A DNA stretch of 64,000 bases. It comes from Myxacorys californica WJT36-NPBG1. Its GTDB lineage: Bacteria; Cyanobacteriota; Cyanobacteriia; Leptolyngbyales; Leptolyngbyaceae. Under the pieces are notes generated by a model. The model was not told the DNA's origin, ran no database searches, and saw only the letters and a program-made list of their open reading frames with translations. The stretch lies in NCBI GenBank assembly GCA_019359315.1, contig JAHHHO010000010.1:1-64000 (forward strand), given 5' to 3'. This document shows positions 45,544 to 48,676 of the stretch, piece by piece (position 1 is the stretch's first letter; every line of letters starts with the position of its first letter). The position numbers and the translations under genes were made by a program.

Positions 45544-45677
45544 GCAGCGTTAGTCTCAAAGCACGTCATCTCCAACTGGGCAAAGCTACTGAATTTAAGC
45601 GAATTCAGGCGATTTGTCCTGACGCATTATGGAATTGTCTGAATCAGGAACTATATCCTTGATTCAGATTGAATTCT

Positions 45678-45872
45678 ATGCGTGTTCAAACTTCCTTTGT
45701 GTTAGCAGGTTGGTTTATAGCTTCCGCGGTTTCTTCGGAGTTCCGCACAGCGGCAATCGCAGAATTTTTTGCGATTCAGTTTTCCTCCTCTCCGTCCAAT
45801 CAATCCAATGTAGCCAATCTGTCCCAAAAGAGTTATCTTGACCACCGAGGAAGCGGACGAGTCGAAGCGTAA
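45678..45872 (+). CDS. patX: PatX-like RGSGR peptide precursor upstream of hetR
   Basis: A 64-residue frame. The N-terminus MRVQTSFVLAGWFIASAVSS is a short hydrophobic stretch like an export signal. The middle is Ser/Asn/Gln-rich and unstructured. The C-terminus is DHRGSGRVEA, with the exact RGSGR pentapeptide at 45846-45860. RGSGR is the PatS/PatX pattern-forming signal that binds HetR. PatX genes are known as small ORFs with an export signal and a C-terminal RG(S/T)GR, lying upstream of hetR in filamentous cyanobacteria. All three properties are met here, with hetR starting 408 bases downstream. No strong ribosome binding site is seen. The TTG at 45669 would add three residues. Confidence 0.82.
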   Translation: MRVQTSFVLAGWFIASAVSSEFRTAAIAEFFAIQFSSSPSNQSNVANLSQKSYLDHRGSGRVEA

Positions 45873-45987
45873 TAGTCTTAAATTCTAGCGTTAACTTGGC
45901 GTTTCTCAAGCTAACTTGAGTAAGTTTTGTTTAAGCTGCTCGTCCCGTTAAAATTCCTCCAGTTTAGCTAACAAAGATGAATAGTTC

Positions 45988-46029
45988 TACTAGCGGATGT
46001 AACCTTCAAAAAGATTACATCCGCTAGTA
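45988..46029. repeat. Perfect 15-bp inverted repeat between patX and hetR
   Basis: TACTAGCGGATGTAA (45988-46002) and TTACATCCGCTAGTA (46015-46029) are exact reverse complements around a 12-base loop. No T-run follows on either strand, so a simple intrinsic terminator is not obvious. It may be a protein-binding site or a stable RNA hairpin. Confidence 0.85.
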
Positions 46030-46161
46030 AAATGGGCGAACATTAAGTTCATTCCTGTTCACTCCTTGCTTCATCGGGAACGCTATGAGATGTAGAAACA
46101 CCATTGATAAATAGAATAAATAGAAGTTACTTCGTTCTTCATTCCTGAGCGATCGCTTTTG

Positions 46162-46220: not shown

Positions 46221-47186
<966 letters not shown>

Positions 47187-47419: not shown

Positions 47420-48676
47420 CTACGCATTATTGTTTTGCAGTTCCGCCGTTTTGACGCCTAACTCTTGTGTTTGGTCGCCCCGACGAACTTGCACCTTCAG
47501 CGTTTGCCCTAGACGGCTATTCTCTACGATCGTTTGCAACTGATCGGCTGTCTTAATCGCTTGCTGATCAATCTCAGTAATCACATCGCCTCGACGAATT
47601 CCAGCCTTCGCTGCCGGAGTATTGGGCAACACTCGCACGACAATTACCCCATCGATTTCGGGTACGGTAAACGCTGAGTTTGGATCGCTGTTGTTCTGTC
47701 TAGCAATCTCTGGAGTCAGGGTTGTCATCTGCACACCCAGATACGGATGAGGAATCTTTTCGCCTCGCGCTAAGGCATCTTTAACTGATTTCGCCTTGTT
47801 GATCGGAATCGCAAAGCCAATTCCCATCGCATCCGCCCGAATTGCGGTATTGATGCCAATCACTTCTCCGCGATCGTTGAGTAATGGCCCTCCCGAATTA
47901 CCGGGATTAATGGCAGCATCCGTTTGAATAAAGTCTAATCGCTTATCCACCAATCCAACCTGAGCGCTAGAGCGGTGCAGGGTACTCACAATGCCCAGCG
48001 TCACCGTATTATCCAAACCGAGCGGATTCCCCACTGCGATCGCCCAATCCCCAACGCTAACCTCATCGGAATCAGCCAATGCGGCAAACGGCAAATCGGT
48101 TCCGTTAATCTTCACAACGGCTAAATCACTGACATCATCCGAGCCGCGCACCTTTCCTTCAAATACCCGTCCATCCTTTAGCGTCACCGTGACTTTATCA
48201 GCTCCATTGACGACGTGCGAGTTGGTCAGAATGATGCCGCTTTGATCAATCACAAACCCCGATCCTTGTCCGCGCAGAATTTGCTCGCTCGGTGCTTGAG
48301 GAAACACATCCTGTCCAAAGAACTGACGAAAGGGGTCATCAAACATCGGATTTGGCATTGCCCGACGGGTCACTGTTCGCTCCGTATCAATCCGAACGAC
48401 TGCCGTTCCCACGCGCTTCACCGCATCAGCCACAAAACTTCCCCGAGTCACGGCACGCGGAGTAGCTTGAGCCATTTCAGTTAGAGGTTCAGCAGCCACA
48501 GACGGAGTGAACCCAAATGCCAGCGCGATTGGCAAAGCCAAGTTCCAAAGGATCGTAAGACAGAGTGCGGCAACCCAACGAACTTCACGTCGCCAGTTTC
48601 GTTGGAGATGAGCAAATCCCATCGCCTCCAGCCAATCCCAATTAAAAAAGTTTGAGCGTTGCATAGCCTTCTTCAT
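47420..48676 (-). CDS. HtrA/HhoA-type periplasmic serine protease (Deg)
   Basis: A 418-residue S1C protease. An N-terminal membrane segment/signal ([22 protein letters not shown]) is followed by the trypsin-like domain. It holds the catalytic His in [12 protein letters not shown], the Asp in [12 protein letters not shown] and the Ser in [11 protein letters not shown]. One PDZ domain is at about residues 310-405 ([20 protein letters not shown]). Cyanobacterial homologues HhoA/HhoB/HtrA degrade misfolded envelope and thylakoid proteins. Which of the three this is cannot be told here. It is divergent from the metal-sensor gene, 183 bases apart. Confidence 0.93.

Follow-up and report, generated by a model that had tools for sequence, protein, structure and literature searches.

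We identified an open reading frame of 64 codons directly upstream of hetR in the window, i.e., the whole 64,000 nucleotide stretch of Myxacorys californica WJT36-NPBG1 DNA that was analysed. We consider it very probable (about 85%) that this frame is patX of a Myxacorys-type member of the Leptolyngbyaceae and that its product acts on HetR, with an output other than heterocyst spacing. The gene is a real but ordinary member of the known PatX family, and the pairing of PatX with HetR without heterocysts has already been published; in filamentous cyanobacteria it is described as established (Elhai and Khudyakov 2018, as cited in PMC7761841 and PMC11298460). Beside this established pairing, an inverted repeat in the patX promoter and the tandem-motif PatX proteins of some relatives look less familiar. 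The features of the locus are as follows.

45617..45622, + strand: TCCTGA box, DIF1-like, 61 nt before the ATG and one base from TCCGGA
45638..45668, + strand: perfect inverted repeat, TCTGAATCA-N13-TGATTCAGA, where the -10/start region of the patX promoter is expected
45678..45872, + strand: patX coding sequence, 64 aa (open reading frame; NF047413 match; intact orthologues upstream of hetR in relatives)
45693..45737, + strand: putative export signal at the N-terminus, a hydrophobic stretch of residues 6-20 (Kyte-Doolittle maximum; MR.QTS start)
45846..45860, + strand: RGSGR codons (CGA GGA AGC GGA CGA), with residues invariant and codons varying over 76 loci
45985..46032, + strand: strong hairpin in the patX-hetR interval, probably the terminator of patX (15-bp perfect stem; fold z = -4.25 for 45870-46060)
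46281..47186, + strand: hetR, predicted receptor and regulator (NF009718, 550 bits, cut-off 489; PDB 3qod/4hri, E<1e-150)
46938..47168, + strand: HetR hood domain, peptide-binding (PF18460 HetR_C; contact residues present)
47420-48676, - strand: serine protease of the HhoA/HhoB/HtrA family, convergent with hetR (520.8 bits, cut-off 450)

Results

The patX frame and its product

An earlier note on this DNA had described a 64-codon frame ending in DHRGSGRVEA, 408 bases before hetR and on the same strand, and re-reading the open reading frames and coordinates bore out both statements. The frame opens with ATG, closes with TAA and encodes MRVQTSFVLAGWFIASAVSSEFRTAAIAEFFAIQFSSSPSNQSNVANLSQKSYLDHRGSGRVEA, with RGSGR at residues 57-61 of 64 and a His codon (45843-45845) directly before it; the hetR ATG follows at 46281. 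The description of the N-terminus as export-signal-like stood with one qualification. The hydropathy maximum (Kyte-Doolittle) does lie within the first 25 residues, but the stretch is modest: a coarse 15-residue scan gives 1.37 and the highest value is 1.55, weaker than the family median of 2.17 (upstream RG[ST]GR ORFs). Its MR.QTS start is common to the nearest relatives.

The NCBIfam model NF047413 (heterocyst_PatX) matches the frame from model position 1 to 67 of 69, at 21 bits (E=4.4e-4). This is under the curated cut-off of 30 bits, which is a tool threshold and no biological criterion, and model-based annotation would therefore leave the gene unnamed, in agreement with the remark in the note that such short genes are easily left out of annotations. 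Apart from this cut-off the protein has the make-up of PatX: a C-terminal RG[S/T]GR, small size with a hydrophobic N-terminus, a DIF1-type box, hetR in the same genome, and both ends kept in relatives while the middle is not. The proposed match to PatX in size, position and architecture is thus supported by the end-to-end NF047413 match, the orthologues and the promoter box.

The locus resembles the PatX type represented by asl2332 of Anabaena PCC 7120 (Elhai and Khudyakov 2018), which is likewise small, with a hydrophobic N-terminus, HRG[S/T]GR near the C-terminus, a DIF1-like box shortly upstream and hetR in the genome. It differs from that type in its TCCTGA box, where the heterocyst-former loci examined carry TCCGGA, in having no GTAN8TAC in the patX-hetR interval, in its three-residue tail and in the position of patX directly before hetR. 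We also considered PatS, which shares the HetR-binding pentapeptide (PatS6, ERGSGR), and rejected it, since PatS proteins have about 13-17 aa and no export signal, whereas the window protein has 64 aa and a hydrophobic N-terminus; PatS itself has 17 aa and, in published accounts, no export signal, and is limited to some heterocyst-formers. HetN also contains RGSGR, but it is a full-size enzyme-like protein whose size and context are not comparable to those of the window PatX.

Conservation upstream of hetR

Loci with hetR were gathered from relatives and from named genomes, duplicates were removed, and 110 distinct loci had at least 900 nt upstream. A small RG[ST]GR ORF lies on the same strand within 1.5 kb upstream at 76 of these 110 loci and on the opposite strand at none (0/110). 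With a looser de-duplicated set of 125 loci, RG[ST]GR was found in 90, and 28 of 29 scrambled motifs in four loci or fewer; the remaining one, GSGRR, was found in 32 because it overlaps RGSGR-R. An RGSGR frame upstream of hetR is therefore more than chance. Across the 76 loci there are 100 motif copies, in which six Arg and four Gly codons are used and vary freely, His or Tyr precedes the pentapeptide in 84, and the only residue change within it is one S to T; as the search itself allowed nothing but S or T at that place and held the remaining residues constant, what is informative is the variation in codons together with the strand contrast. Heterocyst-formers or Planktothrix and Laspinema strains account for many of the 34 loci that lack an upstream match, and when the PatX model was run on nine named genomes, of which eight have no patX within 2 kb of hetR, every one gave a match above the cut-off.

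The nearest relative within the genus, Myxacorys almedinensis A (Leptolyngbyaceae), has an intact patX orthologue encoding MRAQTSVVLSGCLIACAIAG...YLSHRGSGRIEG..., which agrees with the window protein in its start and its HRGSGR block, while the middle differs in length and sequence. Over the 12-codon block round the motif the two Myxacorys genes differ by three synonymous and three replacing changes, and HRGSGR has none of the replacements. The M. almedinensis protein scores 13.0 bits against NF047413, lower than the window protein, and would likewise go unnamed by the model. The note had proposed looking for a conserved pentapeptide with an unconserved middle, and had named a broken frame or lost RGSGR codons in close relatives as evidence to the contrary; the hetR-upstream regions of relatives show this pattern, and at the orthologous loci the frame is intact and the residues are kept.

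Several relatives carry PatX precursors with 2 to 8 tandem copies of RGSGR in ORFs upstream of hetR (L025, L031, L046, L047, L051, L082, L121, L134). One repeats AYRGSGRVET five times with small changes (L031), and another has eight copies whose codons differ synonymously between copies (L025); from their sequences, such proteins look like multi-copy prohormones. A PatX-like ORF with three RASGR and three RGSGR also occurs away from hetR (L202:1407-1757, contig C4 of genome G007), with a TCCGGA box upstream, in a genome that has a single-motif patX beside hetR as well (L021).

The patX promoter

Elhai and Khudyakov are said to have reported in 2018 that the DIF1-type box of PatX lies within about 69 nt of the start. 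TCC[TG]GA was present within 330 nt upstream of the motif at 75 of the 76 loci, and in the 330 nt after the motif at 16. In PMC7377430 the DIF1 box TCCGGA is centred at -35.

The inverted repeat lies in the stretch that separates the TCCTGA box from the start of patX. Its consensus in relatives is approximately TCCGTATCA...TGATACGGA, and the two paired differences from the window keep the symmetry. Over 43 sequences 73% of the cells pair, compared with 21-38% after shifting one arm by 1-3 columns, and the covariation score was reached by one of 500 shuffles, which is support and no proof, as these are related sequences and one of them supplied the structure. Two relatives (L011, L014) are without the repeat. 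By analogy with mapped DIF1 promoters, transcription would begin between the arms, a position that speaks for a DNA site rather than an RNA hairpin. A search of Rfam returned one sub-threshold plastid match lying across the repeat (E=0.86), which is not meaningful.

The inverted repeat at 45638-45668 is a possible regulator site. No HetR site (GGGN5CCC) or NtcA site (GTAN8TAC) was found in 45.5-46.3 kb, with window-wide counts of both at chance level, and generic scans for sigma-70 promoters and terminators also remained at chance level.

When the pattern of box and left arm was searched over 58 genomes it marked mainly patX promoters, with scattered single matches at a rate similar to that of the reversed control. 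The promoter pattern alone located hetR-unlinked patX genes near position 1500 in two genomes of one genus (L187, L188), neither of which has patX beside hetR. A second full patX-type promoter, with box and GTATCAG arm, was observed near position 1500 of L173 (genome G005); no RGSGR frame was found within 450 nt of it, and it is perhaps a patX remnant.

We regard it as possible, albeit with more doubt than confidence, that the start-site inverted repeat is where a dedicated dimeric regulator, or else a leader hairpin, controls patX in non-heterocystous lineages, a layer not known from heterocyst-formers, and that in some relatives PatX is additionally a tandem 'prohormone' that releases the HetR-binding peptide in up to eight copies. 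Neither the inverted repeat nor tandem-motif PatX was met in the portions of the literature examined, a scope that excluded the 2018 PatX paper.

The HetR receptor

The genome has a single HetR match. In the hood-PatS6 structure (PMC4649674), Glu253 is indispensable, the N-terminus of the peptide is held by Glu254 and Asp256, its arginines are bound by Asp270 and Asp278, and Arg223 lies at its C-terminal carboxylate. Mapping through the structure alignment showed that the window HetR keeps R223, E253, E254, D256, D270 and D278 (Anabaena numbering), which in the 298-aa HetR fragment are R221, E251, E252, D254, D268 and D276; R221, E251, D254, D268 and D276 are invariant among 13 aligned HetRs. 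The R-x-L-E-E-L-D residues that the note had read in the hood are present there as RVLEELD, and all six residues that contact or read the peptide are kept, hence signal and receptor appear, from these sequences, to be matched. Arg223 reads a free C-terminus, and so the VEA tail behind RGSGR should need to be removed.

Neighbouring features

The counterpart of the patX-hetR hairpin in M. almedinensis is followed by TTTT, which makes the hairpin probably the terminator of patX, and as judged from sequence it probably separates the patX and hetR transcripts. Among 80 named hetR loci a gene for an FAD-dependent oxidoreductase lies upstream of patX in 28. None of the 80 (0/80) has an HtrA-type gene beside hetR, and the published peptidase is PatP; the protease at 47420-48676 was rejected as a candidate PatX peptidase on these grounds.

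Discussion

No nifH match above the cut-off was found in the genome (best 224.7 vs 394.35 bits); the best match is presumably the related ChlL protein. The strain is therefore presumably no nitrogen fixer and makes no heterocysts, and the likely role of the PatX-HetR pair is not heterocyst patterning.

The gene, its conservation, its promoter and the receptor residues are observed here, and the later steps are modelled on Nostoc. There, according to PMC12756182, PatX is exported and cleaved by the peptidase PatP (Alr1666), and HetR is bound by HRGTGR (estimated KD 88 nM), which blocks its DNA binding. By analogy, the window patX would be transcribed from its own promoter (TCCTGA box), with a transcript that probably ends at the hairpin before hetR, and PatX would be exported via its hydrophobic N-terminus. 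An extracytoplasmic peptidase would then cut it to an X-RGSGR hexapeptide, here HRGSGR, with the C-terminal VEA removed; the hexapeptide would re-enter the cytoplasm, either of the producing cell or of its neighbours, bind the HetR hood and stop HetR from binding DNA. Such a circuit would most likely steer other filament behaviour or physiology, rather than the spacing of heterocysts.

The closest described arrangement is that of the non-heterocystous Leptolyngbya sp. BL0902, where patX is also immediately upstream of hetR (GFS31_32390-32400), but according to PMC11298460 the two genes are apparently co-transcribed there, whereas in the window a strong hairpin lies between them. The same paper reports deletion transcriptomes in which PatX was not seen to oppose HetR, and its authors call the effects of patX basically or largely hetR-independent. 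These data count against our main reading, as do the sub-cut-off NF047413 score, the weak N-terminus and the absence of a HetR or NtcA site nearby.

The BL0902 data give reason to consider that PatX is real but mainly HetR-independent in this lineage, e.g., as an exported peptide with another receptor, its position next to hetR being historical. For the shared genes of groups 2 and 3, the patX-hetR double deletion behaved like the patX deletion and unlike the hetR deletion (PMC11298460), and patX lies away from hetR in at least two genomes. The peptide-contact residues of HetR are nevertheless conserved, with the five named above invariant in 13 HetRs, and what is conserved in PatX is precisely the pentapeptide that binds HetR, and we therefore hold HetR-independence to be unlikely. 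Still less likely, and in our view very improbable, is a decaying and functionless patX relic in a strain without heterocysts. The lack of nifH above the cut-off, the low model score and the weaker hydrophobic stretch would suit a relic; the frame, however, is intact in both Myxacorys genomes, the HRGSGR residues are unchanged despite synonymous changes while flanks and middle diverge, and the promoter box and inverted repeat are retained.

That RGSGR merely fell within a chance open frame has hardly any probability left. Short ORFs are common in the interval, and [HY]RG[S/T]GR occurs at three other places in the genome, all in frames without the PatX layout, including chance HRGSGR frames (L194, L197). 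At the hetR loci, however, position, strand, frame, promoter and motif are kept in most relatives, the opposite strand has no RGSGR ORF and nearly all scrambled motifs are absent; the orthologues refute this explanation.

Taking the window frame as a patX gene that acts on HetR, the locus adds a clean PatX-HetR pair in a strain without detected nitrogenase. The cut-off of the current PatX model misses members from Leptolyngbyaceae, and the TCC[TG]GA box combined with the inverted repeat is a practical finder for patX genes overlooked by protein models or lying away from hetR.
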